From NCBI RefSeq assembly GCF_001723685.1, contig NZ_MCBX01000005.1, positions 62,001-126,000 on the forward strand: 64,000 bases of DNA, in the 5' to 3' direction. Numbering within the stretch: position 1 is the first letter of the stretch; each line of letters starts with the position of its first letter. A program made the position numbers and the translations under genes. The notes beneath the pieces were generated by a model that saw only the letters and a program-made list of their open reading frames with translations, did no database searches and was not told the origin of the DNA. Below are positions 25,514 through 44,510 of the stretch, piece after piece. The stretch is from Candidatus Marithrix sp. Canyon 246 (GTDB lineage: Bacteria > Pseudomonadota > Gammaproteobacteria > Beggiatoales > Beggiatoaceae).

Positions 25514-26812
25514 CTAATTAAACATCTCATAAGTAATATTACTAAACCAACTATGAGCATAAGCTACTTCATATTTTCGAGTTTGTGCTGAAGCATCTAT
25601 AGGTGAAATACCACCAGAATCTGGAACTGATATTATCTTACCATTGTCTAAACGATAAATAGCCGCTACTGAAATACCAAAATCATCTCCTACAACACTA
25701 TAACAAGTATTGACATAAGATGGTGTTGCCATTTCTCGCCCTTGCAATTCAGATAAAATTGCTTCAGCACAGACTTTTGCTTGAGTATTCGCTGAATAAG
25801 CTGATTTAGGCATCGGACCAGCTATACAAGCATCACCAATAACATAAATATCTTTATGCAAGCTTGATTCAAATGTTTTCTGATTAACTGGGCACCAACC
25901 ACTATCATCTGTTAAACCACTATCAAGAACAATTTTAGCGGCTGTTTGTGGAGGAATTATATTGAGAACATCTGCTGGATATTCATCTTCAAATTCACCA
26001 GCAATAACTGCATTTGCCTTAACATTGACTCCAACGACTTCACCTTCTTCATGAGAAGGAATCCATTCGATCATACTATTATCAGTGCCATATCCATACA
26101 TCTTTTCCCATCCCTGAGTAAACAAACCTTGTTTAGAAAATGCTTGATTGGCATCAAACAGCAATACCTTTGACTTAGGCTTATGATGTTTAAAATAATT
26201 AGCTATCTGACTAGCACGTTCATAGGGTCCGGGAGGGCAACGAAATGGCTTAGGTGGTGCAGAAATAATTACAGTACCACCATCTTTCATCTCTTCTAAC
26301 TGTTTTCTTAAAGTAACAGTTTGTGATCCTGCTTTCCAAGCATGAGGTATTTTTTCTGCAACCTCAGCATTATAACCATCAATCGCATCCCACTTAAATT
26401 CAACACCCGGTGACACTATTAATTTATCAAAAGCAACTTCTTCTCCACCAGCAAGACGAATTGTTTTAGCAACAGGATCAATATTCATAGCCCGGCTATA
26501 AATAAAATTTATAGCATATTTATTTAAGCCTTTATAACTAAACTTAATGGAATCTATTGTCCGTTCACCGCTTAAAACTTCATTACTCATAAAACAAGTG
26601 TGGTAATACTTATTTTGTTCAATCAGCGTCACATCAATAGTCGGATCTGCCATACGAATATATTTAGCGGCAATAGCACCACCTGAACCACCACCAATTA
26701 CAACCACTTTTTGATTAGCACCTCGTGCTATAAATGGAAAACTGACCATACCAGCCGCTGCTACACTACCTGCCGCTATCGTTACAAATTGTCTTCTACT
26801 TAGATTTGACAT
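25514..26812 (-). CDS. fccB: Sulfide dehydrogenase flavoprotein subunit, copy 1
   Basis: FccB is the FAD subunit of flavocytochrome c, which oxidises sulfide in the periplasm and passes electrons to the diheme subunit FccA. The 432-residue protein opens with a twin-arginine signal (SRRQFVTIAAG), then the FAD motif VVVIGGGSGGAIAAKYI. The two expected redox cysteines are present: RCPPGPYERAS (Cys192) and GWCPVNQKTF (Cys307). A second FAD contact is [14 protein letters not shown], and the C-terminal FCSD domain is complete. It follows fccA by 10 bp on the same strand. It is highly similar to copy 2 at 30807-32096. Confidence 0.96.
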   Translation of the reverse strand: MSNLSRRQFVTIAAGSVAAAGMVSFPFIARGANQKVVVIGGGSGGAIAAKYIRMADPTIDVTLIEQNKYYHTCFMSNEVLSGERTIDSIKFSYKGLNKYAINFIYSRAMNIDPVAKTIRLAGGEEVAFDKLIVSPGVEFKWDAIDGYNAEVAEKIPHAWKAGSQTVTLRKQLEEMKDGGTVIISAPPKPFRCPPGPYERASQIANYFKHHKPKSKVLLFDANQAFSKQGLFTQGWEKMYGYGTDNSMIEWIPSHEEGEVVGVNVKANAVIAGEFEDEYPADVLNIIPPQTAAKIVLDSGLTDDSGWCPVNQKTFESSLHKDIYVIGDACIAGPMPKSAYSANTQAKVCAEAILSELQGREMATPSYVNTCYSVVGDDFGISVAAIYRLDNGKIISVPDSGGISPIDASAQTRKYEVAYAHSWFSNITYEMFN

Positions 26813-26822
26813 ATTTTATTCC

Positions 26823-27419
26823 TTATTGTTCTTTTTGACTAGCGTAAAAGTGAACCAATTCATCAATACTATCTTTGCCATAACTGTCAACGATGAATTC
26901 TAAACGTTTATTCATCTTAGTAGGAGCAGGGCGACCAGATAAAAATTCTAACAAGCTAATTTTCAGGTAAGGCATCCATTGCCCAGCAAGAATACCTGAA
27001 TTATGCTCATCTTTTCGACCATTATCTCTATGACAACTTTCACAATAATATTTATGAAGTCTTGCACCTTTCTTAGCTTTTTCGGCATTTACTCGTTGTG
27101 GATAAACTACAGGTTTCTGTTTAGAAAAGAAATCTGCCATAGTTTCAATTTCTGTATCCGTATAACCGCGTGCTAAACGTCCCATAATAGTAGTTGGACG
27201 TTCATTAGTTTTTGCTTCTTGCATTGCTTGAATAAAAGCAAATTTAGACATTCCTGCAATAGATGGTGTTGCTGGACCAAGACTAGAACCATCAGGACCA
27301 TGACAACCTACACAAGTATTAACTAACATCAATGTATTTATATCTACCGCCATAACAGGAAGACTGAAAATCAGCCAAGTTATAGCAAATAATATATACC
27401 TTAGTATTTTAGTAAACAT
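26823..27419 (-). CDS. fccA: Sulfide dehydrogenase diheme cytochrome c subunit, copy 1
   Basis: The 198-residue protein has a Sec signal peptide (cleaved near VMAVD) and two heme-binding motifs, CVGCH (near 36-40) and CESCH (near 120). This is the arrangement of the diheme FccA subunit that takes electrons from FccB. It is the first gene of fccA-fccB and is transcribed away from hao across a 391-bp AT-rich gap. AAGAAGG precedes the start. Confidence 0.93.
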   Translation of the reverse strand: MFTKILRYILFAITWLIFSLPVMAVDINTLMLVNTCVGCHGPDGSSLGPATPSIAGMSKFAFIQAMQEAKTNERPTTIMGRLARGYTDTEIETMADFFSKQKPVVYPQRVNAEKAKKGARLHKYYCESCHRDNGRKDEHNSGILAGQWMPYLKISLLEFLSGRPAPTKMNKRLEFIVDSYGKDSIDELVHFYASQKEQ

Positions 27420-27810
27420 ATTGTTACCTTCTTTATTATATATAAATAGAACTTTATTAAGATAAATCTACCAGCTTGCTAGTTTAATCAAAATTTTCAA
27501 AAACTGCAATAAAAATTATAATCATATTTTTATCTCTATATATTAGAATATATTAATATTAACAAACCATGATAATAAGGTATTAAGCTGTATTTTCAGC
27601 ATTATATATTAGAATTTAATAACATTAACAATAATAATAATTATCATTAACTAAGCAATTACTAATACACTAACTTAACATATGTAAAAAATATTAATCT
27701 ATGATAAATAAATATTTTTTAAGTAAAAAAATAAAAAATTGCTAAAATATATTTTTATTGGTATTATAGGAGACTAATCCATATTTCATATTCATATAGG
27801 AGGACGATTT
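27420..27810. promoter_or_regulatory. AT-rich divergent control region between fccA and hao
   Basis: This 391-bp gap drives two operons in opposite directions. A promoter-like pair for hao lies at 27739-27744 (TTGCTA) and 27762-27767 (TATTAT), 17 bp apart. A strong ribosome site AGGAGG is at 27798-27803, seven bases before the GTG start. An imperfect repeat (TATATTAGAAT with a following AACATTAACA-like part) occurs at about 27538 and 27605 and could bind a shared regulator. No gene is seen in it. Confidence 0.55.
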
Positions 27811-29292
27811 GTGATCATCCGAAAAAACATTATAAATTTAGGTGTAATATTAGTAGGTTTACTAATATTATTTTCAGGAATGGCAAATGCAGCTCGCCCA
27901 GCTGGTCAAATTGGAGTAGATTGGGGTAAGAAGGAAGGACAGTTTTGTACAAATTGTCACATGACAGAAACACCGGGTATTTATCACCAATGGAATAATA
28001 GTCAACATGGTCAAAGTGGTGTAAATTGTCTGGATTGCCATCAAGCAGAAAAGGCTGAGAAAGATGCTTTTTTACATGAAGGTCAATATATTGCTGTGAT
28101 TGTCAGTCCAAAAGATTGTTCTAAATGTCATCAAGCTGAATCGAAGGAATTTCAACGTTCTCATCATTCCAGTGCTGCTGAAATTTTATCATCTTTAGAT
28201 AACCTATTAGGCGAAGTTCTTGGTGGACCAGAAGCTGTAACAGTAGGCTGTAAGCAATGTCATGGTAATAAAATTGAGATTGATGAAAAAGGTAAACCCA
28301 CACTTGAGACATGGCCAAATACTGGTATTGGTCGCATAAATACAGATGGTTCACGCGGAGCTTGTACAGCATGTCATGGTCGTCATAAGTTTTCTCGCGC
28401 TCAAGCCCGTACTCCTGATACTTGTGGTAAATGTCACTTAGGTCCAGATCATCCACAAAAAGAAATTTATGAAGAATCTAAGCATGGTATTATTTATAAA
28501 GCCAGTATTGCTGAAATGAATCTTGGTTCTGATAAATGGGTTGCTGGTATTGATTATAGTGCCGCTCCTACTTGTGCTACTTGCCATATGAGTGCAGCAC
28601 CTTTATTACCAAAAACTCATGATGTTGGTGAACGTATATCTTGGAATTTACGTACTCCTATTTCTAATAAAATTAATTTGGTACGTTTAGATAATGATCA
28701 TCAATATGATGTACCTGAAGGCAAACCTTTACCTAAAGTAGGTGATAAACCTGATCATCCTAAAGCCAAAGGTGGTACAGTTATAGAAATTATGACTTGG
28801 AAAGATCGACGTGAAAATATGGAAATGGTATGTAATGCTTGTCATACCAGCGGCGTAATCAAAGGGCATTATAAACAATTTGATGACTTAGTTAATTTAT
28901 ATAATAATAAATTTGCTAAACCAATTGCAGCGATTATGGCTGAACTGAAAAAGACTGGTAAAATCACTCCATCACCTTTTGATGAAACAATTGAATGGGT
29001 TTGGTGGGAAATTTGGCATCATGAAGGTCGTCGCGCTCGTCACGGTGCTGCTATGATGGGTCCAGATTACGCTTGGTGGCATGGTATGTATGAAGTAGCA
29101 AAACATACTTACTTTGAATTTATTCCTGAGCTAAAAGAATTAGTCGGTGACAAAGAAGCAGAGCATTTACTTGAAAAATACTTTAAACCAATTAAAGGTC
29201 ATGCTTGGTTCTTTGATGGCTTAAATAAAGATGCAATTGATCAGGTTCGTAAAGGCTATGAAGCTCGTTACGGTAAAGGTTCAATGAAATAA
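27811..29292 (+). CDS. hao: Octaheme cytochrome c of the hydroxylamine oxidoreductase family
   Basis: The 493-residue product has a signal peptide (cleaved near ANAAR) and eight CxxCH motifs, near residues 46, 73, 103, 147, 185, 205, 255 and 341. The C-terminal block EGRRARHGAAMMGPDYAWWHG is characteristic of the HAO family (20 of these residues lie at 405-425). Members oxidise hydroxylamine or reduce nitrite and hydroxylamine to ammonium, depending on whether a tyrosine is cross-linked to the active heme. Tyr420 is a candidate to check, not an assignment. A related abundant octaheme protein is known from orange Guaymas Beggiatoa. It starts at GTG after AGGAGG and heads a unit with a TPR protein and soxYZ. 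Confidence 0.92.
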   Translation: MIIRKNIINLGVILVGLLILFSGMANAARPAGQIGVDWGKKEGQFCTNCHMTETPGIYHQWNNSQHGQSGVNCLDCHQAEKAEKDAFLHEGQYIAVIVSPKDCSKCHQAESKEFQRSHHSSAAEILSSLDNLLGEVLGGPEAVTVGCKQCHGNKIEIDEKGKPTLETWPNTGIGRINTDGSRGACTACHGRHKFSRAQARTPDTCGKCHLGPDHPQKEIYEESKHGIIYKASIAEMNLGSDKWVAGIDYSAAPTCATCHMSAAPLLPKTHDVGERISWNLRTPISNKINLVRLDNDHQYDVPEGKPLPKVGDKPDHPKAKGGTVIEIMTWKDRRENMEMVCNACHTSGVIKGHYKQFDDLVNLYNNKFAKPIAAIMAELKKTGKITPSPFDETIEWVWWEIWHHEGRRARHGAAMMGPDYAWWHGMYEVAKHTYFEFIPELKELVGDKEAEHLLEKYFKPIKGHAWFFDGLNKDAIDQVRKGYEARYGKGSMK

Positions 29293-29301
29293 AAATGACT
29301 T

Positions 29302-29333
29302 AATATTCAGGGTTTATTTAAACCTTGAATATT
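29302..29333 (+). promoter_or_regulatory. 15-bp-arm hairpin between hao and the TPR gene
   Basis: AATATTCAGGGTTTA is followed after two bases by TAAACCTTGAATATT, pairing throughout with one G-U pair. No T run follows, so it looks less like a terminator than an RNA-stabilising or processing structure that could set hao expression apart from that of the genes downstream. Confidence 0.7.
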
Positions 29334-29342
29334 GGAAATATT

Positions 29343-29768
29343 ATGCGAAAAATTATTATTTTAATTTTTATTGCTATACCAATATTTGCACAAGCAACTA
29401 ATATAGATACACTTATTTTAGATGGTAATAAATATTGGAAAGCTGGTAAAATGAAACAGGCAGAACAAAGTTATCTGCAAGCACTTAAATTAAATGAAAA
29501 ATCCTTAGCTATTAATTTAAAACTAGGTGCATTGTATTTAAATCAACATCGCTTAAAAGAAAGTATTTCCTATTTTCAACGCGCTTTGAGTTTAGATACT
29601 AATAATGCTAAACTATTTACTATTCTTGGTATAGCTTATTGGCATAATGGAGCTTATTCTTTAGCACAAGCTACTTTCCAACAAGCACTAAAGATAGATG
29701 CAAACCAACAAGAAGCTAAGAAATTACTAGAAAGAATTAATAAAAAGCTTAATCACCACAGTAAATAA
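29343..29768 (+). CDS. Periplasmic TPR protein
   Basis: The 141-residue product has a signal peptide (IFAQATN cleavage) and about three tetratricopeptide repeats, for example DGNKYWKAGKMKQAEQSYLQ and ISYFQRALSLDTNNAKLFTI. TPR proteins act as assembly or docking platforms. Position between hao and soxY suggests help with maturation or interaction of one of these, which is an inference. The ATG at 29343 is preferred because a TTG start at 29325 would lie inside the hairpin and delay the signal peptide. Confidence 0.85.
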   Translation: MRKIIILIFIAIPIFAQATNIDTLILDGNKYWKAGKMKQAEQSYLQALKLNEKSLAINLKLGALYLNQHRLKESISYFQRALSLDTNNAKLFTILGIAYWHNGAYSLAQATFQQALKIDANQQEAKKLLERINKKLNHHSK

Positions 29769-29780
29769 GGAGATTAATAG

Positions 29781-30224
29781 ATGAGTTTATCACGTAGAAC
29801 GATTTTAAAAAGCGTTAGTGGAGTACTAGCCTTAGCATTACCATCAGCAGTACTGGCAAAATGGCCACAAACAGCCTTTGAATCTAAAAATGTTGAGGCT
29901 GTTTTAAAAAACTTATATTCTGAGTCAGAAGCAATAGAAAGTTCTGATATAACCATTAAAGTTCCAGCTATTGCTGAAAATGGTAGATTTGTTCCCGTTG
30001 AAATTGAAACAACTTTAGCTAAAGTAGAATCAATTAGCATTATATCAGAAATTAATCCAGTGCCATTACTAGGTGAATTTAAATTTGCTGATAATGTTCT
30101 ACCTTGGATTAAAACTCGTGTAAAAATTAGTAAAACTGGTAATGTAATTGTAATGGTCAAAACAAATAATCAATTATATACTGCACGTAAACAAATAACA
30201 GTAAATCTTAGTGGTTGTGTATAG
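29781..30224 (+). CDS. soxY: Sulfur carrier subunit SoxY, copy 1
   Basis: SoxY carries sulfur intermediates on a C-terminal cysteine during thiosulfate oxidation in the periplasm. The protein has a twin-arginine signal (SLSRRTILKSVSG), then the SoxY core with SDITIKVPAIAENGRFVPVE and LPWIKTRVKISKTGNVIVM. The C-terminus is VNLSGCV, so the carrier cysteine is the penultimate residue and the usual trailing GG of GGCGG is missing. AGGAGA precedes the ATG. soxZ follows after 9 bp. Confidence 0.93.
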   Translation: MSLSRRTILKSVSGVLALALPSAVLAKWPQTAFESKNVEAVLKNLYSESEAIESSDITIKVPAIAENGRFVPVEIETTLAKVESISIISEINPVPLLGEFKFADNVLPWIKTRVKISKTGNVIVMVKTNNQLYTARKQITVNLSGCV

Positions 30225-30233
30225 GGGCATAAG

Positions 30234-30512
30234 ATGGCAAGAATTAGAACACGTATTTTATCTAGGATAAAAGGTGATGTTACTACAGTGAAAGCATTAG
30301 TGAAACATCCAATGACAGGAACACATTTTATTAAAGAAATAACTTTTGAACATCAGGGCAAAGTTATAATGTCAGCTAATTGGGGTATGGGTATATCATC
30401 TAACCCTTATTTTTCTTTCAAATTTAAAGGTGGCAATAAAGGCGAACCGGTAAAATTGAGTTGGAAAGATAATAAGGATCATACGGGTGAAATTGTGAAG
30501 AATATTAAATGA
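30234..30512 (+). CDS. soxZ: SoxZ, copy 1
   Basis: SoxZ is the structural partner of SoxY. The 92-residue protein has the family motifs VKALVKHPMTGTH and the ANWGMGISSNPYFSFKFKG region, and ends with a short basic tail. It is nearly identical to copy 2. A dispersed palindrome follows five bases after the stop and probably terminates the unit. Confidence 0.93.
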   Translation: MARIRTRILSRIKGDVTTVKALVKHPMTGTHFIKEITFEHQGKVIMSANWGMGISSNPYFSFKFKGGNKGEPVKLSWKDNKDHTGEIVKNIK

Positions 30513-30516
30513 ATAA

Positions 30517-30551
30517 AGACCTGTCAGGTTTTAAAAACCTGACAGGTCTGA
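30517..30551. repeat. Dispersed double palindrome, flavour B (copy 2)
   Basis: AGACCTGTCAGGTTTT and AAAACCTGACAGGTCT lie around a central A. It is placed just after soxZ and before the convergent fccB copy 2, consistent with a bidirectional terminator. Confidence 0.9.
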
Positions 30552-30607
30552 TAGCCTTCCCTACAGATACTTGCGGGAGAATCATATTTTATGTTGGACT
30601 ATGTATT

Positions 30608-30812
30608 AATTACTGATGTTACGCACAGTTCTTCTATCTGTTTATAATATATTTTGTAGGTTGGGTTAGATTATCAAGCGTAGCGCGATAACGTAACCCA
30701 ACATTTGATGGCACATTCTTGTTGGGTTACGTTTTTTTACTACGTAAAAAAATCTAACCCAACCTACAGGATATATCAATGTTAGAAGAGTTCTGCGTAA
30801 CATCAGTTAATT
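30608..30812. mobile_element. Nested palindromic element downstream of fccB copy 2
   Basis: The outer inverted repeats are 30608-30638 (ACTGATGTTACGCACAG) and the near-complement at 30782-30812. The inner ones are TGTAGGTTGGGTTAGA at 30655-30670 and its exact complement at 30753-30768. The outer right arm contains the fccB stop codon. No gene is inside. It looks like one MITE inserted into another, or a single element with two layers. Confidence 0.8.
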
Positions 30813-32096
30813 AAACATATCATAAGTAATATTATTAAACCAACTATGAGCATAAGCTACTTCATACTTTCGAGTTGCTGCTGAAGCATTTAAAGCTGAA
30901 AGACCACCTGAACCTTTAATTGATACTATCTTACCGTTTTCTAAACGATAAATAGCCGCTACTGAAATAGCAAAATCATCTCCGACAACACTATAACAAG
31001 TATTAAGGTAAGATGGTGTTGCCATTTCTCGTTCTTGTAATTCAGATACAATTGCTTCAGCACAGACTTTTGCTTGAGTATTCGCAGCATAAGCCGATTT
31101 AGGCATCGGGCTAGCTATACAAGCATCACCAATTACATGAATATCTTTATGCAAGCTTGATTCAAATGTTTTCTGATTAACTGGGCACCAACCACTATCA
31201 TTTGTTAAACCGCTATCAATAGCTATTTTACCTGCTGTTTGTGGAGGAATGATATTTAGCACATCTGCTGGATATTCATCTTCAAATTCACCTGCAATAA
31301 CTGCATTTGCCTTAACATTAACTCCAGTAACTTTTCCTTCGGAATTAGAAGGAATCCATTCAATAATACTGTTATCAGTACCATATCCATACATCTGTTC
31401 CCATCCTTGAGTAAACAAAGCTTGTTTAGAAAAGGCTTGATTGGCATCAAACAGTAATACCTTTGACTTAGGCTTATGATATTTAAAATAATTGGCTATC
31501 TGACTAGCGCGTTCATATGGTCCGGGAGGACAACGAAATGGCTTAGCTGGTATAGAAATAATTACACTGCCACCATCTTTCATCTGTTCTAACTGTTTTC
31601 TTAAAGTAACAGTTTGTGAGCCAGCTTTCCAAGCATGAGGTATTTTTTCCGCAATTTCAGCATTATAACCCTCAATAGCATCCCAGTTAAACTCTATACC
31701 CGGTGACACAATTAATTTATCAAAAGCAACTTCTTCTCCACCAGCAAGACGAACTTTTTTAGCAACAGGATCAATATTTATTGCCCGACTATGAATGATA
31801 TTGATACCATATTTGTTTAAGCCATCATAACTAAACTTAATAGAATCTATTGTGCGTTTACCACTTAATACTTCATTACTCATAAAACAAGTATGGTAAT
31901 ACTTATTTTGTTCAATCAGCGTCACATCAATATTCTGATCCGCCATACGAATATATTTAGCGGCAATAGCACCACCTGAGCCACCACCAATTACAAGCAC
32001 TTTTTTACTAACACCTCGTACTATAAATGGAATACTGACTATACTAGCAGCAGCAGCGGCTATAGTTATAAATTGTCTTCTGGTAAAATTTGACAT
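30807..32096 (-). CDS. fccB: Sulfide dehydrogenase flavoprotein subunit, copy 2
   Basis: This is the second FCSD flavoprotein, 429 residues, with the same twin-arginine leader (TRRQFITIAAA), FAD motif (VLVIGGGSGGAIAAKY), RCPPGPYERAS and GWCPVNQKTF cysteine motifs and C-terminal domain. Differences from copy 1 are scattered substitutions, with a three-residue shorter leader. All expected functional motifs remain, so both copies are probably active. The stop codon is in the inverted repeat of the element downstream. Confidence 0.96.
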   Translation of the reverse strand: MSNFTRRQFITIAAAAASIVSIPFIVRGVSKKVLVIGGGSGGAIAAKYIRMADQNIDVTLIEQNKYYHTCFMSNEVLSGKRTIDSIKFSYDGLNKYGINIIHSRAINIDPVAKKVRLAGGEEVAFDKLIVSPGIEFNWDAIEGYNAEIAEKIPHAWKAGSQTVTLRKQLEQMKDGGSVIISIPAKPFRCPPGPYERASQIANYFKYHKPKSKVLLFDANQAFSKQALFTQGWEQMYGYGTDNSIIEWIPSNSEGKVTGVNVKANAVIAGEFEDEYPADVLNIIPPQTAGKIAIDSGLTNDSGWCPVNQKTFESSLHKDIHVIGDACIASPMPKSAYAANTQAKVCAEAIVSELQEREMATPSYLNTCYSVVGDDFAISVAAIYRLENGKIVSIKGSGGLSALNASAATRKYEVAYAHSWFNNITYDMFN

Positions 32097-32106
32097 TTTC
32101 TATTCC

Positions 32107-32679
32107 TTATTTTTGACTAGCATAATAATGAACCAGTTCATCAATACCATCTTCACCATACTTATCAAACATTAATTGTAACTTTTTCATCATCTTAGTA
32201 GGAGCAGAACGAGTTTTATTTAAAAATTCTAATAAACTAATTTTCAGATAAGGCATCCTTTGCCCTGCAAGAATACCAGAACGACTATTATTTCTATGAC
32301 ATCTTGCACAATAATATTTATGAAGTCTTACACCTTTCTTAGCTTTTTCGGCATCGAATTGTTGTGGATAAATTACAAGTTTTTGTTTAGAAAAGAAATC
32401 CGCCATAATTTCAATTTCTGCATCTGTATAAGCAGGTGCTATACGTCCCATAATAGTAGTTGGACGTTCATTATTTTTTGCTTTCTGCATTGCTTGAGTA
32501 AAAGCAAATTTAGACATTCCAGCAATAGAAGGCGTTGCTGGACCAAGACTAGAGCCATTAGGACCATGACAATTAACACAAGTATTAACTAACATCAATG
32601 TGTCTATTGCCATAACTGGAATGCTGAAAATCAGCGAAATTATAGAAAATAATATATACTTTACTAATTGAGTTGACAT
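32107..32679 (-). CDS. fccA: Sulfide dehydrogenase diheme cytochrome c subunit, copy 2
   Basis: The 190-residue second FccA has a signal peptide and two heme motifs, CVNCH and CARCH. Compared with copy 1, a segment after the second motif is shorter (NNSRSGILAG). It is divergent from soxY copy 2 with only 28 bp between the start codons, a gap that can hardly contain two normal promoters. Confidence 0.92.
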   Translation of the reverse strand: MSTQLVKYILFSIISLIFSIPVMAIDTLMLVNTCVNCHGPNGSSLGPATPSIAGMSKFAFTQAMQKAKNNERPTTIMGRIAPAYTDAEIEIMADFFSKQKLVIYPQQFDAEKAKKGVRLHKYYCARCHRNNSRSGILAGQRMPYLKISLLEFLNKTRSAPTKMMKKLQLMFDKYGEDGIDELVHYYASQK

Positions 32680-32707
32680 ATTTTTTACCTTTAGAGATGA
32701 TTAAGAT

Positions 32708-33151
32708 ATGAGTTTATCACGTAGAACGCTTTTAAAAAGCCTTAGCGGAATACTAGCTTTAGCATTACCATCAGCAGTAATGGCAAAATGGCCACAAATA
32801 GCCTTTGAGTCTAAAAATATTAATGCTGTTTTAAAAAAACTATACCCTGATGCAGAAGCGATAGAAAGTTCTGACATCATCATTAAAATTCCAAATAATG
32901 TAGAAAATGGTAGATTTGTTCCGGTTGAAATTCAAACAAATTTAGCTAATGTAGAATCAATTAGCATTATATCAGAAACGAATCCAGCACCATTACTTGG
33001 TGAATTTAAATTTGCTGATAATGTTCTACCTTGGATTAAAACTCGCGTAAAAATAAGTAAAACTGGTAATGTAATTGTAATGGTAAAAACCAAGAATCAA
33101 TTATATACTGCACGTAAACAAGTAACAGTAAACCTTAGTGGTTGTATATAG
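32708..33151 (+). CDS. soxY: Sulfur carrier subunit SoxY, copy 2
   Basis: This copy is 147 residues like copy 1, with the same twin-arginine leader, core motifs and the unusual end VNLSGCI. Substitutions cluster in the middle (KIPNNVENGRFVPVE). The upstream gap is too short for an independent standard promoter, so transcription may start inside fccA copy 2 or in an overlapping site. Confidence 0.93.
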   Translation: MSLSRRTLLKSLSGILALALPSAVMAKWPQIAFESKNINAVLKKLYPDAEAIESSDIIIKIPNNVENGRFVPVEIQTNLANVESISIISETNPAPLLGEFKFADNVLPWIKTRVKISKTGNVIVMVKTKNQLYTARKQVTVNLSGCI

Positions 33152-33163
33152 GAGTATAATAAG

Positions 33164-33442
33164 ATGGCAAGAATTAGAACACGTATTCTATCAAGGGTAA
33201 AAGGTGATGTTACGACAGTGAAAGCACTAGTGAAACATCCAATGACAAGAACACATTTTATTACAGAAGTAACTTTTGAACATCAGGGCAAAGTTATAAT
33301 GTCAGCTAACTGGGGAATGGGTATATCATCTAACCCTTATTTTTCCTTTAAATTTAAAGGTGGCAATAAAGGTGAACCGGTAAAATTGACTTGGAAAGAT
33401 AGTCAAGGTGATGCTGGTGAAGTTGAGAAAAATATTAAATGA
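33164..33442 (+). CDS. soxZ: SoxZ, copy 2
   Basis: The 92-residue protein differs from copy 1 at only a few positions (for example HPMTRTHFITEVTFE and the tail SQGDAGEVEKNIK). TAGGAG precedes the start by 12 bases. It forms a SoxYZ pair with the gene before it and is followed directly by a dispersed palindrome. Confidence 0.93.
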   Translation: MARIRTRILSRVKGDVTTVKALVKHPMTRTHFITEVTFEHQGKVIMSANWGMGISSNPYFSFKFKGGNKGEPVKLTWKDSQGDAGEVEKNIK

Positions 33443-33446
33443 ATAA

Positions 33447-33481
33447 AGACCTGTCAGGTTTTCAAAACCTGACAGGTCTGA
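33447..33481. repeat. Dispersed double palindrome, flavour B (copy 3)
   Basis: The sequence is the same as the copy at 30517 except for a C at the centre. It sits between soxZ copy 2 and the convergent HNH-like gene. The two downstream flanks of the soxZ copies match only through this element, so it may have been part of the duplicated unit. Confidence 0.9.
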
Positions 33482-33485
33482 AAGA

Positions 33486-34151
33486 CTATAGTAGGTTTTG
33501 TTTCAACATTTCAAATGCTGTGAAAAATTGATAAACTGGTTCTATTTCTTTACCTAATAACAGGCTCTTTTTTTTAGGTTCCAAGTATGCTCTTCGATTA
33601 TCTTTGATAGTACCTTGGTTTAAACCTAATACTAAAATCATATTTTCAATTCTTTCAACTATATTTTCATCTTTAATATCAGGATGGGCATGAAATAGAT
33701 GCCTTTTTTCATTATAGTCTAATAGTTTGTAAGGATTATATTTAGGAAAATCAGGTTTCAGAATTTCATCTACTGGTTGAGCACCTTTTTCAATGTTTAT
33801 TTTATCGGAAATGGCAAAAAAATTTTCCCAACGCCAACCATATTTTTCTTTGAGGCTGCTATCAAAATGATCTAATTGAGCCGAAAAACTGGATTCTTGT
33901 TTTGTCTTTTCGATATATCTTCCAGCTTGATCAAAGTTATTTGGACTACATCTTTCTGTTTCAGCAATCATAATTTCTGTATAGGCACATAAACCTTGCT
34001 GACAAAAAAGTAAGCTAACTAACACATCTTTATAGTATTTATGTGATGAATAATATTTAGAATGTATTTGATTGTTCTTTTCTAATTGTCTGATCCACGA
34101 TTTATATGCTGTCGCTAGAATTTGAGTTTTATCAATCTTCCTCATATTCAT
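33486..34151 (-). CDS. HNH-like partner of an ATPase cassette (PtuB-like, degenerate zinc site)
   Basis: The 221-residue protein begins MRKIDKTQ after a two-residue lead and has a single CQQGLC (Cys50, Cys55) followed by AYTE. Further on are QLDHFDSSLKEKYGWRWENF (Asp94, His95) and SDKINIEKGA (Asn119, Lys122, Gly123). This order matches the HNH fold of PtuB/TIGR02646-type proteins, where the second pair of zinc cysteines would stand in the ISDKIN region. Here they are missing. It overlaps the ATPase gene by 20 bp. PtuAB (Septu) and retron-linked pairs are anti-phage systems. Assignment to that class is an inference. Confidence 0.65.
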   Translation of the reverse strand: MNMRKIDKTQILATAYKSWIRQLEKNNQIHSKYYSSHKYYKDVLVSLLFCQQGLCAYTEIMIAETERCSPNNFDQAGRYIEKTKQESSFSAQLDHFDSSLKEKYGWRWENFFAISDKINIEKGAQPVDEILKPDFPKYNPYKLLDYNEKRHLFHAHPDIKDENIVERIENMILVLGLNQGTIKDNRRAYLEPKKKSLLLGKEIEPVYQFFTAFEMLKQNLL

Positions 34152-35472
34152 CTAATCTCCAAGCGAGTTTCGTCGCTAGTTTTTTATAATCCGCCCATAT
34201 TTTTTGACCTTCTTCAGTATCTATCTTGTTTTCAGCCTTGAGTTTTGAAAGAATAGTTTCTAATCTAGCCGCTTGGGTAAGTGCTTTATTCCTGAATTTT
34301 TCGTTACCTTCAACGGCTAAATCAAAAACACGCATTAATATAACATCCCACCGCAAATAACGCGGATCTATAAAATAATTATCAACATGTCTTTCACCTT
34401 CATAATATTTTTCTTGATAAACCGTACCTTGGTTATTAAATTTCAATTCTACAATTTCCCAAGGTTCAAATGCCGAGGCGATAATTGGTGAGTGTGTGGC
34501 AAAGAGTAATTGTGCTTTAGGTGCTAATCCTGTGTAATAGTTGATAATTTCATATTGAATATCAGGGTATAATGATCTTTCTGGTTCATCAAGCAAAATA
34601 ATGCTATCCTCAGTATTCAATTTAAACAATGGTGTCATGGTTAATATTATTTGTTTAGTACCAGTACTCCAGCCACTATAGGGAATATCCTTACCATCAA
34701 TAGATTGTATTTCAATGAATTTTAAATCATCCGCCGATTTAAAATCAAATGAAGTTTTGACAGCTAAAGAAAATTTATTCAAGATGAGATTCAATTGTTG
34801 GGCTAATTCTTCAAGCGGATTAGGATTTTCCTTTTTCCACCGCTTATAATTTTCAAAAGCACGCCCACCTTCGTCAGCACTTATGCCAAGGGCTTTGGTA
34901 ATCTGCTGACTGTATTTTAACTCTTTTATTTTATAAGCATTGATGTCGGTTAAAATATCATTCCAGATTGCTAATACATTATCATTTTCAAAATCAAAGA
35001 TTTGTTTATCTTTATACTGCTCTTGTTCAAATTTTTCTATTTTAAAATGGGATTCGAAAGATAGCGGTTTTTCTTGTAAAATTTGATTAATATTGGTGAT
35101 TATTTCGGCTGGAAACGATATTAATTTATTTTTACCTAGATAAAATTTTTCAAGAAAATTTTGAGGTGGAAGCGTTTTCCAATCCCATAAAATATCATCC
35201 TCATTGCTGATTTTGATAATACTTTTGAATTCTTTAAAATAAGCGGTTATCAGTATGCCTTGCAAATCGTAATTATGTTCTATAGTCAGATTTCCTGTCA
35301 AAGTTGCCCTGATAACATTCAGCAAACTTGTCTTTCCCGTACCACTTTGCCCAAGAAAACAAATCTTATCCAAAGGCTTACCTTCTTTTTTATGTCCTTT
35401 AGGATAAGTTAAGTCAAGTGTAAGGTTTTTAAATTGGTTATAATCTTTAATGTCTATTTGACTTATTTTCAT
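34132..35472 (-). CDS. RecF/OLD-like AAA ATPase of a two-gene cassette (PtuA-like)
   Basis: The 446-residue ATPase has Walker A GQSGTGKTS (41-49), a signature-like GWSTGTKQIILT (267-278), Walker B IILLDEPERS (291-300) and the histidine switch ATHSP (His327). The middle part is helical. The C-terminal 100 residues are charged and helical, without a TOPRIM motif, so it is not a classic OLD nuclease. It resembles the ATPase halves of defence pairs such as Septu PtuA. It is the first gene of the pair and shares 20 bp with the HNH-like gene. Confidence 0.8.
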   Translation of the reverse strand: MKISQIDIKDYNQFKNLTLDLTYPKGHKKEGKPLDKICFLGQSGTGKTSLLNVIRATLTGNLTIEHNYDLQGILITAYFKEFKSIIKISNEDDILWDWKTLPPQNFLEKFYLGKNKLISFPAEIITNINQILQEKPLSFESHFKIEKFEQEQYKDKQIFDFENDNVLAIWNDILTDINAYKIKELKYSQQITKALGISADEGGRAFENYKRWKKENPNPLEELAQQLNLILNKFSLAVKTSFDFKSADDLKFIEIQSIDGKDIPYSGWSTGTKQIILTMTPLFKLNTEDSIILLDEPERSLYPDIQYEIINYYTGLAPKAQLLFATHSPIIASAFEPWEIVELKFNNQGTVYQEKYYEGERHVDNYFIDPRYLRWDVILMRVFDLAVEGNEKFRNKALTQAARLETILSKLKAENKIDTEEGQKIWADYKKLATKLAWRLDEYEED

Positions 35473-35501
35473 GATTTTATTAACTTTATGGTTTTCTTAT
35501 T

Positions 35502-38569
<3,068 letters not shown>

Positions 38570-38577
<8 letters not shown>

Positions 38578-39940
38578 ATTCTACTAAGCTTCCCATCTCT
38601 TCTATTCCAATTGGTTTAATTGGTGATCTAATTTTCAAATATTTTAATTCTTCTATAGGTGTATTTGTATGTTTTGAGATAACTTCCAGTAAAGTTAATC
38701 CACAGAATCTTGATTGGCAACTTCCCATACCACATCTAGTAAAGCTTTTTATGCTATTGGTTTCTTTACAGTTCCGTTCTAAACCATTCTTTATCTGTTT
38801 TAATGTTACTTCTTCACATCTACAAATAATTACATCATCATCACTTGGAGATAAAAAATTTTTATGAGGTAAATATAAGGTGTTTAAAAAATCTCTGATT
38901 TGCATATGAGATTTTAATTGTTTTTGATATGTAGTAACTTTTTGAATTTTATTAAAATCATTTAATATTTTATTCGCCGCAATTTTTGCTTCTACTATAG
39001 CAACATCAACACCCCTAATACTCTTGCCATCTCCTACAACAAATATATTATCAACTGAACTTTGCATAAATTCATCAGTTTTGATATTTACAGTTCTTGT
39101 TGCTTTAGAATATTCATAATCACATCCAACTTGCAGTTGTAAGTTGATATTTGGAGCTAATCCATTATGTATAAAAGCTATATCAGTATCAATTTTGACT
39201 TGCTTTGAACCTTTTTTAAATACTACAGTTTTTAGTTCATCATCACCTTCAAACATAAGTTCATCTACAAAATGATAGACTTTTAACTTATGTTTTCTAA
39301 ATTTGGCAAAGAATCCTAGTGCCTTGATAAAAAACCCAAATTTCAATAATGCTTTTGGCAGATGCTTAGCGGCTTTAAAATAATTATTTAAAGGAGTTGT
39401 ATCTATAACTGCTTTAATCTTGGCTCCAGAATCTAAATATTGAGAAATAACATAGTAAAATAGTGCGCCACTACCTATAAAAACTGCATCATCTTTTACA
39501 ATCAAAGATTCTTTTAAAAGAATTTGTGCAGCAGTTGTTCCAATAACTCCCGGAAGTGTCCAACCTTTTACAGGAAATGGTCTCTCTAAGGAGCCAGTTG
39601 CTATCAGTATTTTTTTAGCTTTTATTTTATAAGATGTGCCTTGTTGTGAATAGTAAATCTCTAGTTTTGGATTAATGTTCCAAACATAAGAATTATTTAT
39701 GTAGCTAATTTTATTTAAATTTATCTGTTTGATTAAGTCGAATCCTTTTAGATAATCCTGTTCAAAAAAATCGGTTTTTGTACTATTTTTTTGAACTTCT
39801 TTATATATATGTCCACCTAGAGTTGAACTGTCATCTAAAAGGGCAATCTTTAAGCCATAACCTTGTAAATTAATAGTAGCTTGAATTCCAGCGGGTCCAG
39901 AACCAACAATAACAACATCATATATCTCTGTATCAGGCAT
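38570..39940 (-). CDS. FAD/NAD(P) oxidoreductase alpha (HcnB-like) subunit with [2Fe-2S] site
   Basis: The protein has VVIVGSGPAGIQATINLQG at the start, a second nucleotide-binding region (DDAVFIGSGALFYYV), GDGKSIRGVD and a C-terminal BFD-like iron-sulfur module CRCEEVTLKQI ... CGMGSCQSRFCG. It is the electron-transfer subunit of a three-part amine or opine dehydrogenase. The ATG at 39940 is chosen because the longer frame to 40003 would overlap the ferredoxin-like gene by 71 bp, and GGAG lies before the ATG. It overlaps both neighbours by 8 bp. Confidence 0.88.
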
Positions 39941-40202
39941 CTTCTTCAATCTCCATTCCTTCACGAAGTTTAGTTCTACAGCCTTGAATTGCTCTAACTC
40001 CATCTATTTTGACTAAGCACTCAAAACATACCCCCATAAAACAAAAACTTCCTCTTGGGGTATTTTTGCCAAATGTTTTTCTATTGGTTCTAATGCCATT
40101 AGCAAATAGTGCTGCTGCAATACTATCTCCTTCTTTGGCTTTGTATTTTTTATTGTTAAAGCTAAAAGATATATCTTTACCTTTATCAATTAATCTGGTC
40201 AT
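39933..40202 (-). CDS. Ferredoxin-like [2Fe-2S] gamma (HcnA-like) subunit
   Basis: The 89 residues carry GDSIAAALFANGIRTNRKT and the cysteine set Cys54, Cys59, Cys62 and Cys75 (CFMGVCFEC, then GCRTKL), typical of the small subunit of HcnABC and hydroxyproline dehydrogenase complexes. It is the first gene of the operon, 137 bp from the divergent cyclodeaminase gene, so both may share control sequences. Confidence 0.88.
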   Translation of the reverse strand: MTRLIDKGKDISFSFNNKKYKAKEGDSIAAALFANGIRTNRKTFGKNTPRGSFCFMGVCFECLVKIDGVRAIQGCRTKLREGMEIEEDA

Positions 40203-40339
40203 TAATTTTCCTTTTTGCCTATTAAAGACAATACAATATACCCATTAAATAATATAGTCAAGCATCAACAATGTTCAACACTGTGGCATAAAAACTGCTA
40301 GGCTCGTATTTTGATCCATCAATTTTAAGGAATGCAAAT

Positions 40340-41395
40340 ATGACAAACAAAATACAAAGCCTTTATCTTTCACAAGAAGATCTTCTTAAAGCAGGATGTT
40401 TTGATATGCGTCTGGCTATATCTACAGCAGAAGCTGCAATACTTGCTTTTCAAGAAAAAAAGATCCTTTTTCCTGATAAAATTGTCCAAATATTTTACAA
40501 AAATAGTCAAGATAGGATTAACTGCTTACCTGCCACCCTTTTGTCAGAAAAAATATGTGGTGTTAAATGGGTATCAGTTTTCCCCGGCAACCCTCAAAAA
40601 TACGGAGTTCAAAACCTTTCTGCTGTAATGATTCTTTCCGAGATTGAGAAAGGCTTCCCACTCGCATTTATGGACGGAACACTATGTTCAAATATGCGCG
40701 TTGGTGCCATGGGCGCAATTGCAGCCAAGCATTTTGCACGGCAGGATTCTAAGAGTATCGGTTTTATTGGAGCAGGGGAGCAAGCCAAAATGCAGTTTAT
40801 AGCCATGAAGACAGCAGTGCCTTCGATTGAAGAATGCCGAGTATCAGCCAAATATGACTACGAAGAACAGCAGTTCATTAAAGAAATGAGTGCTATTTTT
40901 CCAAATATACATTTCATCGCAGCAAACACAAAGGCACAGGTTGCCATAGAAGATGCTGACATCATTGTTACTGCCACAAGTACACAGGCGCCTCTACTTA
41001 AAGCAGCATGGATGAAGCCCGGAGCTTTCTACAGCCATGTAGGCGGTTGGGAAGATGAATATAATGTTGCAAAACAATGTGACAAGATAGTTTGTGATGA
41101 TTGGGAAAATGTTAAGCACAGAACACAAACTCTCAGCCTCATGTATAAAGATGGAGAACTAGCGGACAGTGACATTCATGCAAACTTAGTTGATGTTTTG
41201 ACTGGAGAAAAAAGCGGGCGTGAGACAGATGAAGAACGAATCTACTTCAATGCTGTTGGCCTTGCTTATGTCGATGTTGCTATTGCTCATGCGATGTATA
41301 AGCGTGCCAAAGAAGCAGAAGCAGGACAGAATCTCAACATTCAAGAATCTATGATATTCCAACATGAAGAGCTAAAAGATTGGATACGGGTGTAG
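40340..41395 (+). CDS. Ornithine cyclodeaminase / mu-crystallin family protein
   Basis: The 351-residue protein has the NAD(P) fold of the family: KSIGFIGAGEQAKMQFIA near residue 135, ADIIVTATSTQAP near 210, and the substrate loop MDGTLCSNMRVGAMGAIAAKH near 110. Members include ornithine cyclodeaminase, pyrroline-2-carboxylate reductase and opine-type dehydrogenases. Next to an HcnABC-like dehydrogenase, a role in hydroxyproline, opine or related imino-acid breakdown is plausible. Codon use is visibly richer in G and C than most neighbours, suggesting recent acquisition. TAAGGA lies before the ATG. Confidence 0.88.
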   Translation: MTNKIQSLYLSQEDLLKAGCFDMRLAISTAEAAILAFQEKKILFPDKIVQIFYKNSQDRINCLPATLLSEKICGVKWVSVFPGNPQKYGVQNLSAVMILSEIEKGFPLAFMDGTLCSNMRVGAMGAIAAKHFARQDSKSIGFIGAGEQAKMQFIAMKTAVPSIEECRVSAKYDYEEQQFIKEMSAIFPNIHFIAANTKAQVAIEDADIIVTATSTQAPLLKAAWMKPGAFYSHVGGWEDEYNVAKQCDKIVCDDWENVKHRTQTLSLMYKDGELADSDIHANLVDVLTGEKSGRETDEERIYFNAVGLAYVDVAIAHAMYKRAKEAEAGQNLNIQESMIFQHEELKDWIRV

Positions 41396-41419
41396 CAATA
41401 ATTTAGCTATAATTCAAAT

Positions 41420-41565
41420 TTGGGGACACTTCATGAGGAGGCACATATACTGTTTCCTGTCCTTGCTTGGTTCCCCATTCGGAACGATACATCATCCAAA
41501 GAAAGTTAGTTTTTATCCACGTCATTCTGTCAAAACTAAACTGCCCTCCAAAATATCCATTCTCT
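41420..41565 (-). pseudogene. Fragment of a DUF4291 protein
   Basis: Read on the minus strand, one frame gives [20 protein letters not shown] followed by [12 protein letters not shown], the hallmark of DUF4291 proteins. Both ends of the gene are missing. It abuts a fragment of sdhA, so the segment is a fusion of broken genes. Confidence 0.75.
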
Positions 41566-41655
41566 CCTTCGGCGGAATTACTTCTACATCATCAGTCAAA
41601 GTAAACATATGAACAGGGCGATAATCAATCTTAACTTTGCCTTCAGCATTTTTCC
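41566..41655 (-). pseudogene. sdhA: Duplicated 3' fragment of sdhA
   Basis: On the minus strand the frame reads [20 protein letters not shown] and then DVEVIPPKE, almost identical to the last codons of the complete sdhA at 42738-44510. Synonymous and a few amino-acid differences show that it is not brand new. It now forms the 3' side of the vapC-like frame. Confidence 0.85.
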
Positions 41656-41988
41656 ATTTAAACTTAAACGTGCGCGTTCTTGAGCGTGCCATTCTGCTGC
41701 TTCTTGAATGTACAAAATCGGCATTTGAGTTACAGTTTCATATAAATATTGTTCAAGTATCTTACGTTTACGTGAAACTGGTAAGCGTTGGCAACCAAAT
41801 AGCAATTCATGCCAAACTAAGGTAGCTGTTGCAAGTTCATCTTGATGTTGTTCAAGTTTGTTTAATATTTGTTGATTTGGTTTAGGACGTATTGGTTCTG
41901 AAAGAACATTAGTATCAAGTAGATACTTTACATAAAAATACCTCACGCCCTGTACTGCGATTACGTACATTATAAAAAATGTATTCAT
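41596..41988 (-). pseudogene. VapC-type PIN toxin, 3' end replaced by sdhA fragment
   Basis: The frame contains KYLLDTNVLSEPIRPKPNQQ with the first catalytic Asp, an ELLFG acidic motif and WHAQERARLSLNGK. Family members continue with a segment holding another catalytic Asp. Here the sequence runs out of frame into the duplicated sdhA tail and ends in an unrelated LRLIIALFICLL. The usual start (ATG before KYLLDT) is also damaged, ATGTAAAG being present. It is probably inactive, and no antitoxin gene is adjacent. Confidence 0.75.
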
Positions 41989-42020
41989 CTAATTCAAAGT
42001 TTGTTATATAATAGTATTGA

Positions 42021-42725
42021 TTATATCAAACCTTTGAGATATTTTTGCCGTTCTTCTTTGTTAAATTTTTCAATAGCATATCTTAACATAGTTCTTGGCA
42101 TTGTTTTATAATACAATTTCAAGAATTCAGTTTCTTTCAATAAATTTCTCTTGCCAATTTCTCTTAACATCCATCCTACCGCTTTATGAATTAAATCTTC
42201 TTGATCATTTAGTAACAGCTCTGAAATTTGTAATGTTTCTTCAAAATCATGATTTCTAATGAAAGTAAATGTGGACATAATTGCTATTCGTCGTTTCCAT
42301 AGACAACTTGACTTAGATAGTTCATGCAATATGGATTTATCCTTATTATCTAGGTACTTTCCAACAATATGTGGAGCAGTTGTATCAACTAAATCCCAGT
42401 TATTTATATACTGTGTGTTAGCCAAATAGATTTTATAAATTTGATTCTGCTGATCAGCATTAGCTTTAGAAAATTGCTCAACTAAAACAAGTAATGCAAA
42501 TAGACGAATTTCATGATAGTTGGATTGTAAAAGTTTTTGTGTAACTTCTAATGAAGTATTTTTATACTTCTTGACAGTTTGACGAATCATTGGAACTCGA
42601 ATACCCAGAAATTTATCACCATATCCATATTCTCCCTTTGCAGTTTTAAAAAAATGCTGAGAATGCTTGGCTATTTCTGGATTGGATAAACTGTGTAGGT
42701 GATCAAGTATGGTTTGATATATCAT
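42021..42725 (-). CDS. DNA alkylation repair protein (AlkD-like HEAT repeat)
   Basis: AlkD-type proteins are HEAT-repeat DNA glycosylases that remove bulky or positively charged alkylated bases. The 234-residue protein has the motifs YGYGDKFLGIRVPMIRQ, HEIRLFALLVLVEQF, NNWDLVDTTAPHIVG and WKRRIAIMSTFTFIR. These include the conserved Trp and Asp of the substrate cleft. It is 12 bp downstream of sdhA on the same strand and may be cotranscribed with it. Confidence 0.9.
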   Translation of the reverse strand: MIYQTILDHLHSLSNPEIAKHSQHFFKTAKGEYGYGDKFLGIRVPMIRQTVKKYKNTSLEVTQKLLQSNYHEIRLFALLVLVEQFSKANADQQNQIYKIYLANTQYINNWDLVDTTAPHIVGKYLDNKDKSILHELSKSSCLWKRRIAIMSTFTFIRNHDFEETLQISELLLNDQEDLIHKAVGWMLREIGKRNLLKETEFLKLYYKTMPRTMLRYAIEKFNKEERQKYLKGLI

Positions 42726-42737
42726 AAAATGGATAAA

Positions 42738-44510
42738 CTAATAAACCCTCTCTTTAGGCGGAATTACTTCAACATCATCAGTCAAAGTAAACATATGAAC
42801 TGGGCGATAATCAAGTTGAACTTTGCCTTCAACATTTAGCCATGCTAAACTGTGTTTTAGCCAGTTTTCATCATCGCGTTTTGGATAGTCTTCACGGGCA
42901 TGGCTGCCTCTACTTTCGGTGCGATTTAGAGCTGAATTCATGGCTACTACTGCTTGCCCGCGTAGGTTGTCTAGTTCCAAAGTTTCAATTAAGTCAGAAT
43001 TCCAAATTAGTGATCTATCTGTAACTTTTACATCACTAAAGCTATTATAAACTTGTTCAATTTTATCTACGCCTTGTTCCAGACTTTCTTGAGTTCTAAA
43101 TACTGAGGCATGGTGTTGCATTACAGTTTGCATATTCTGGCGAATTGCTGCGGTATTTTGATTGCCATTGGCATAGCGTAATTTATCTAAGCGTTCTAAA
43201 GCTTCTTCACCAGCATTTTTAGCTAATGGTTTGTGTGGAGCTTTGCGTGCCATAATTTGGGCACAACGTATTGCTGCCGCTCTTCCAAATACTATGATGT
43301 CGAGTAAAGAATTAGAACCTAAACGATTGGCTCCATGAACTGAGACACATGCGCATTCTCCAATTGCCATTAATCCGGGTATTACTCGATCTTTCAGTGT
43401 CACTACTTCGCCATAGTGATTAGTAGGAATGCCGCCCATATTATAATGAACTGTCGGTAAAACTGGAATTGGCTGTTTAGTAACATCAACCCCTGCGAAA
43501 ATTTTGGCTAATTCAGCAATTCCGGGTAATCGTTCACTAATTATTTCTGAACTTAGATGTTCTAGGTGTAAATGAATATAATCTTTATGTTCTCCAAAGC
43601 CACGCCCTGCACGTAATTCCATAGTAATAGCGCGACTTACAACATCACGTGAAGCCAAATCTTTAGCATGAGGAGCATAGCGTTCCATAAATCGCTCACC
43701 CTCAGAATTCATTAAAAATCCACCTTCTCCGCGCACACCTTCACTAATTAAACATCCAGAACCATAAATACCTGTTGGATGAAATTGTATAAATTCCATA
43801 TCTTGTAATGGCAAACCAGCACGGAGTGCCATTCCATTGCCATCACCAGTACAAGTATGAGCAGAAGTACAAGATAAATAAGTACGCCCATAACCACCAG
43901 TTGCCAACACCACCATATGGGCACTAAAACGATGAATAGTTCCATCAGCCATATTTAAAGCCATGACTCCGCGACAACTACCATCATCATCCATAATTAA
44001 ATCAAGTACAAAATACTCAATAAAAAATTCGGCGTGATGTTTCAGTGATTGCTGATAAAGAGTATGTAAAATAGCATGACCAGTTCTATCAGCGGCAGCG
44101 CAAGTGCGTTGAGCAGTGCCTTCGCCATAATTAGTAGTCATACCACCAAATGGACGCTGATAAATTTTACCATCCTCAGTACGTGAAAATGGAACACCAT
44201 AATGTTCCAATTCAATAACTGCTGGCACTGCCTCACGACACATATATTCAATAGCATCCTGATCACCCAACCAATCAGAACCCTTAACAGTGTCATACAT
44301 ATGCCAACGCCAATCATCCTCACCCATATTACCCAATGAAGCACTAATACCGCCTTGAGCGGCAACAGTATGACTACGAGTAGGAAAAACTTTGGTAATA
44401 CAAGCAGTTATCAAGCCCTTTTCTGCCATACCCAAAGTAGCACGTAAGCCGGCACCACCAGCACCGACAATAATTACATCATAACGATGATCTATAATTT
44501 TATAAGACAT
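42738..44510 (-). CDS. sdhA: Succinate dehydrogenase flavoprotein subunit
   Basis: SdhA oxidises succinate to fumarate in the TCA cycle as part of complex II. Motifs include [15 protein letters not shown], the FAD-linking His in [30 protein letters not shown] and the C-terminal [12 protein letters not shown]. The length of 590 residues is standard. sdhC, sdhD and sdhB are not beside it: a dispersed palindrome and rnfH lie upstream and a repair gene downstream. The other subunits must be elsewhere or the operon has been split. Confidence 0.96.

Follow-up and report, generated by a model that had tools for sequence, protein, structure and literature searches.

A gene pair of Candidatus Marithrix as a probable type I Septu system with a zinc-poor PtuB

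The 64,000-nucleotide stretch of Candidatus Marithrix sp. Canyon 246 analysed here (the window) contains two overlapping genes that very probably constitute a Septu type I (PtuAB) anti-phage system belonging to a zinc-poor branch of PtuB, an assignment made because both genes are homologous to PtuA and PtuB. The pair is a divergent yet recognisable Septu and no new kind of defence; its role against phages is presumed by analogy with known systems. The sequence-only reading of this DNA had raised the possibility of an undescribed defence system. This does not hold, given the homology of both genes to Septu, the presence of the ATPase clade and of a sister zinc-poor PtuB among the existing PADLOC models, and a PtuB structure (PDB 8EE7) that lacks the same cysteines. 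The features discussed below are the following.

34132..35472, minus strand: ptuA-like gene, the upstream gene of the pair, encoding a RecF/ABC-type ATPase of 446 aa (PADLOC, Pfam, phmmer, relatives)
33486..34151, minus strand: ptuB-like gene, encoding a predicted zinc-poor HNH nuclease of 221 aa (PADLOC, NCBIfam, hhalign, conserved family)
34132..34151, minus strand: overlap of ptuA and ptuB, 20 nt (ORF coordinates)
35471..35504, minus strand: upstream junction with the symporter gene (blastn against locus L023; search for the symporter 3' end)
33447..33479, unstranded: palindrome separating soxZ from ptuB and recurring throughout the genome, a 16-nt perfect inverted repeat, AGACCTGTCAGGTTTT (repeat search)

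The gene pair and its ATPase

Both open reading frames are real genes, well beyond chance, because they have relatives in locus L001 of a Thiotrichaceae genome (79%/75% amino acid identity to the window pair), and the dN/dS values between the two pairs (NG86) are 0.16 for ptuB and 0.15 for ptuA. Both genes are under purifying selection. The ptuA gene lies directly 5' of ptuB, in the order of type I Septu, in the window and in those relatives where the ATPase is readable, and overlaps of a like kind occur in L001, L003 and L004; the 20-nt overlap likely couples translation of the two genes.

The upstream product is an ATPase of the kind that type I Septu requires, namely, a RecF/ABC-type protein with Walker A (GQSGTGKT) and Walker B (ILLDEPE) motifs, a THSP H-motif, and no match to TOPRIM in Pfam across its 446 residues. 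It matches the PADLOC PtuA1 model PDLC00274 over residues 1-352 (E=3.1e-77) and the Pfam families AAA_15/AAA_21 above cut-off, and a phmmer search of the PDB yielded weak matches to AriA and PtuA chains. The AlphaFold model of PtuA, with a pLDDT of 46, is too poor to be informative. An OLD or Gabija reading, which calls for a TOPRIM nuclease domain fused to the ATPase, was rejected because the 446-aa protein has no TOPRIM match. The initial description of an OLD/RecF-like ATPase without TOPRIM, overlapping a 221-residue protein, was thus accurate, and both frames were found where it had placed them.

The PtuB-like partner and the zinc-poor family

The partner contains C50, C55, C68, D94-H95, N110 and N119..K122-G123, and no CxxC. 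In an alignment of 18 sequences comprising zinc-poor and canonical PtuBs, C55, Y57, H95, N110 and K122 are invariant; N119 is conserved as well. The first zinc knuckle corresponds to C55-A-Y-T58, with the second cysteine replaced by threonine, and the second zinc cysteine pair of canonical PtuB aligns to SDKI, whereas C50 is found only in the long subfamily of zinc-poor PtuBs. Thus, among the HNH landmarks read from the letters, DH, N..KG and the missing second cysteine pair stand, and the CxxxxC formed by C50 and C55 fails as a zinc pair. The protein appears to be an HNH homologue of TIGR02646/PtuB with the catalytic histidine and asparagine in place, as type I Septu requires; two structural CxxC, a common but non-defining feature of PtuB, are missing. 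They are non-defining because 8EE7 and the members of PDLC00347 also lack CxxC.

Homology of the partner to PtuB was detected at several levels. In PADLOC, it matches HNH_I-A (3.5e-11) and PtuB (4.8e-10). The curated models respond more weakly: NCBIfam PtuB NF041761, a model for the retron Ec78 effector, gives 6e-6 and 26 bits against a cut-off of 150, and TIGR02646 gives 17 bits against a cut-off of 52. The mixed profile that reached PtuB in the PDB was partly circular because canonical PtuB was included in it, and therefore a profile built from zinc-poor sequences only was compared with one built from canonical sequences only; hhalign relates the two with a probability of 97.7% (E=1.4e-12). 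The partner's zinc-poor profile likewise matches that of short zinc-poor PtuBs (97.9%, E=3.5e-13). On its own, the profile of the long zinc-poor form found no PtuB in the PDB and produced one short, weak match to TagE. The AlphaFold model of PtuB, with a pLDDT of 51, falling below 50 in the HNH part, is likewise too poor to be informative. The PADLOC and hhalign matches bear out the PtuA-PtuB-like layout proposed from sequence.

The zinc-poor PtuB is a conserved subfamily. CxxC is absent from 14 of 14 zinc-poor members, which come from the window's family and from Bacteroidota, whereas each of the four canonical PtuBs recovered in the same searches has two. The 13 readable ATPases next to zinc-poor PtuBs form one clade apart from canonical PtuA (100/99 support, with long canonical branches). 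These results confirm that the nuclease is a distinct variant and answer affirmatively whether the cysteine-less form is a conserved family. They point to a zinc-poor branch that is stable, has an ATPase clade to match and is shared by Bacteroidota and Thiotrichaceae-family genomes, and they suggest that PtuB can do without its zinc knuckle.

Within this branch, a long form of about 220 aa, to which the window protein belongs, and a short form of about 195 aa can be distinguished. Three members of the short form score 308, 241 and 182 bits against the PADLOC PtuB model PDLC00347, so PADLOC already lists the zinc-poor branch under Septu. The Bacteroidota systems described by PDLC00274 and PDLC00347 (short zinc-poor) share with the window pair the ATPase clade, the N-terminal motif LTYPxGHxKxGxPLDKxCFxGQSGTGKT and the gene order; the PtuB of PDLC00347 also has CAYTE, (D/E)HF, N and N..K, and no CxxC. 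The window subfamily differs by about 25 additional residues after CAYTE (GxY..LDHF..GWxW) and by the C-terminus of its PtuA. A further zinc-poor PtuB is the molecule of that name in PDB 8EE7/8EEA, which we take to be the Septu of E. coli ATCC25922. It has the pattern CCYSE..IEH..N..N, in which another residue takes the place of the second zinc cysteine, and its residues 42-190 contain no CxxC, but it is only about 20% identical to the window PtuB in pairwise comparison and has a long insertion after N. Loss of zinc is therefore no novelty within Septu, as 8EE7 and PDLC00347 also lack CxxC. No paper on zinc loss in PtuB was found in the openly available literature. Because curated models miss the nuclease of the long form, with an NCBIfam score well below cut-off, long-form Septu may be under-annotated.

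Proposed mechanism and alternative readings

If the pair works like the PtuAB systems characterised so far, its two proteins would form a complex that stays inactive in uninfected cells, and infection would alter its nucleotide state or supply a nucleic-acid trigger. PtuB would then cleave nucleic acid, either phage DNA or host tRNA, and halt phage growth. Both kinds of target have precedents: retron-Eco7 cuts tRNA-Tyr (PMC11555353), as does Septu EcB88 (PMC13096335), and PtuAB of E. coli ATCC25922 Septu is reported to target nicked DNA, as cited in PMC11555353. For EcB88, mutations at positions of the corresponding kind have shown that the H-N-H residues H75/N91 of PtuB and the Walker A/B motifs of PtuA are essential for defence (PMC13096335). 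In the window PtuB, cleavage would proceed at a one-metal HNH site formed by H95, N110 and N119, and a metal-free scaffold, CAYT plus SDKI, would stand in for the two-CxxC zinc knuckle seen in canonical PtuB, so that only the structural metal would be lost. The conservation pattern is best read as a structural metal that is probably dispensable and catalytic residues that are kept.

Points counted against the Septu assignment are the NCBIfam PtuB score of 26 against 150 bits, pLDDT values too low to support an HNH fold, a search that turned up no phage assay for this subfamily, and the location of some Bacteroidota copies inside biosynthetic operons, which is compatible with defence, yet atypical of defence islands. 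Tentatively, and with the odds clearly against it, one may consider that zinc-poor PtuB of the long form, together with a PtuA that has a C-terminal module of its own, makes a functionally separate Septu subtype with another assembly or target (e.g. DNA rather than tRNA), in which zinc loss would mark a substrate switch.

A catalytically degenerate or regulatory HNH subunit, with PtuA alone or another activity as the effector, would fit the retention of a single zinc ligand, all others being gone, and the low-confidence AlphaFold model of the HNH core. We consider this quite improbable, given that every subfamily keeps the catalytic His, Asn and N..K motif with little or no variation, that selection is strongly purifying, and that 8EE7, a solved PtuB, is just as zinc-poor, with nicked DNA as the reported target of E. 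coli ATCC25922 Septu PtuAB (cited in PMC11555353).

The pair could also represent the effector genes of a type I-A retron whose RT and msDNA have been lost or are distant. The best PADLOC match of the partner is indeed HNH_I-A, slightly ahead of PtuB, and the type I-A/Ec78 (Eco7) PtuAB is likewise an ATPase and HNH pair with the same residue order. However, Ec78 PtuB has CAYC and two more cysteines after Asn, along with an RT/msDNA antitoxin, and the window pair has none of these. There is no RT partner on the contig (C42), as expected of type I Septu, and all nine RVT_1 matches lie on other contigs; no Rfam family matches positions 26000-44000; no RT was seen beside the ATPase in the loci of relatives that were read; and the best ATPase models are PtuA1, not ATPase_I-A. 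The retron reading was accordingly rejected as highly implausible, and with no RVT_1 on the contig, no Rfam family nearby, and soxYZ and a symporter gene as neighbours, the pair is assigned to type I Septu. Least probable of all is convergence on PtuAB by a separate two-gene system, previously undescribed and either defensive or toxin-antitoxin-like. The approximately 20% identity of the partner to canonical PtuB and the long-form PtuA C-terminal motif WEIVELKF..HVDNY..PRYLRWD (absent, by eye, from short-form and canonical PtuA) might point to it. Against it stand the profile comparisons, in which each gene is significantly similar to its Septu counterpart, a gene order and overlap shared with PtuAB, and the related short form, which is firmly PADLOC PtuB at up to 308 bits.

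Distribution and genomic site

The distribution of the Septu-like pair in the family is patchy, with decay in some genomes. Matches were found in five of 144 related genomes, including the window's own, and the pair occurs in four of the 126 genera in the sample of relatives (the loci surveyed were drawn from sampled genomes). It is absent from the same-genus genome G001, broken or partial in G007, G018 and G038, and rare in class- and phylum-wide samples. No relatives of the partner were found in viral contigs or in phage and plasmid collections. Genomic contexts differ, with soxYZ and the symporter gene in the window, a second ATPase pair in L001, and a location within trp or pur operons in a number of Bacteroidota, and no conserved non-defence partner gene was seen across the loci read. 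In Bacteroidota, zinc-poor ptuAB sits within biosynthetic operons, after trpB in L003 (3161-6902) and L004 (3738-5673) and before purE in L041 and L044. In L001 (1512-3208), another ATPase gene (PADLOC HEC-02A, 1e-40) lies directly upstream of the pair, together with a 207-aa partner that has no match in Pfam or PADLOC.

In the window, the pair is flanked by soxZ and a gene for an SSF (sodium:solute) symporter. In a blastn comparison with the sister genome G001 (L023, G001:C9:198500-218000), homology stops where ptuA begins, at 35471. At the corresponding G001 site (L023, 9590-15528), the symporter 3' end is followed by a ParA-like gene, unknown genes and a canonical ptuA (PDLC00271, 366 bits), with incomplete copies of the end of the symporter gene (944 bp and 67 bp) interspersed. 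After this ptuA comes what looks, on reading, like a truncated PtuB C-terminus (no significant match). The symporter 3' end thus holds a zinc-poor Septu in the window and a canonical Septu, apparently decayed, in G001, so that two Septu branches have used one site in sister species.

The palindrome between soxZ and ptuB, GACCTGTCAGGTTTTNAAAACCTGACAGGTC, occurs four times in the window (at 30518, 33448, 49401 and 55071), and dozens of copies are present in each of the window's genome (G000) and G001. With so many copies, its location at the edge of the array carries no information, and the palindrome was rejected as evidence of an insertion hotspot, although the initial reading had called it a repeat at a typical spot for insertions.

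The window's genome also encodes a canonical, zinc-type Septu (G000:C4, L029:1174-3138), so that both forms of PtuB are present in one genome. This system is likewise an adjacent ATPase-HNH pair, with the motif CSYCE..VEH..N..CKNCN..K, but it retains the four zinc cysteines and its PtuA belongs to another clade (PDLC00278, 406 bits). The two systems offer a natural comparison of zinc content with DNA or tRNA targeting.
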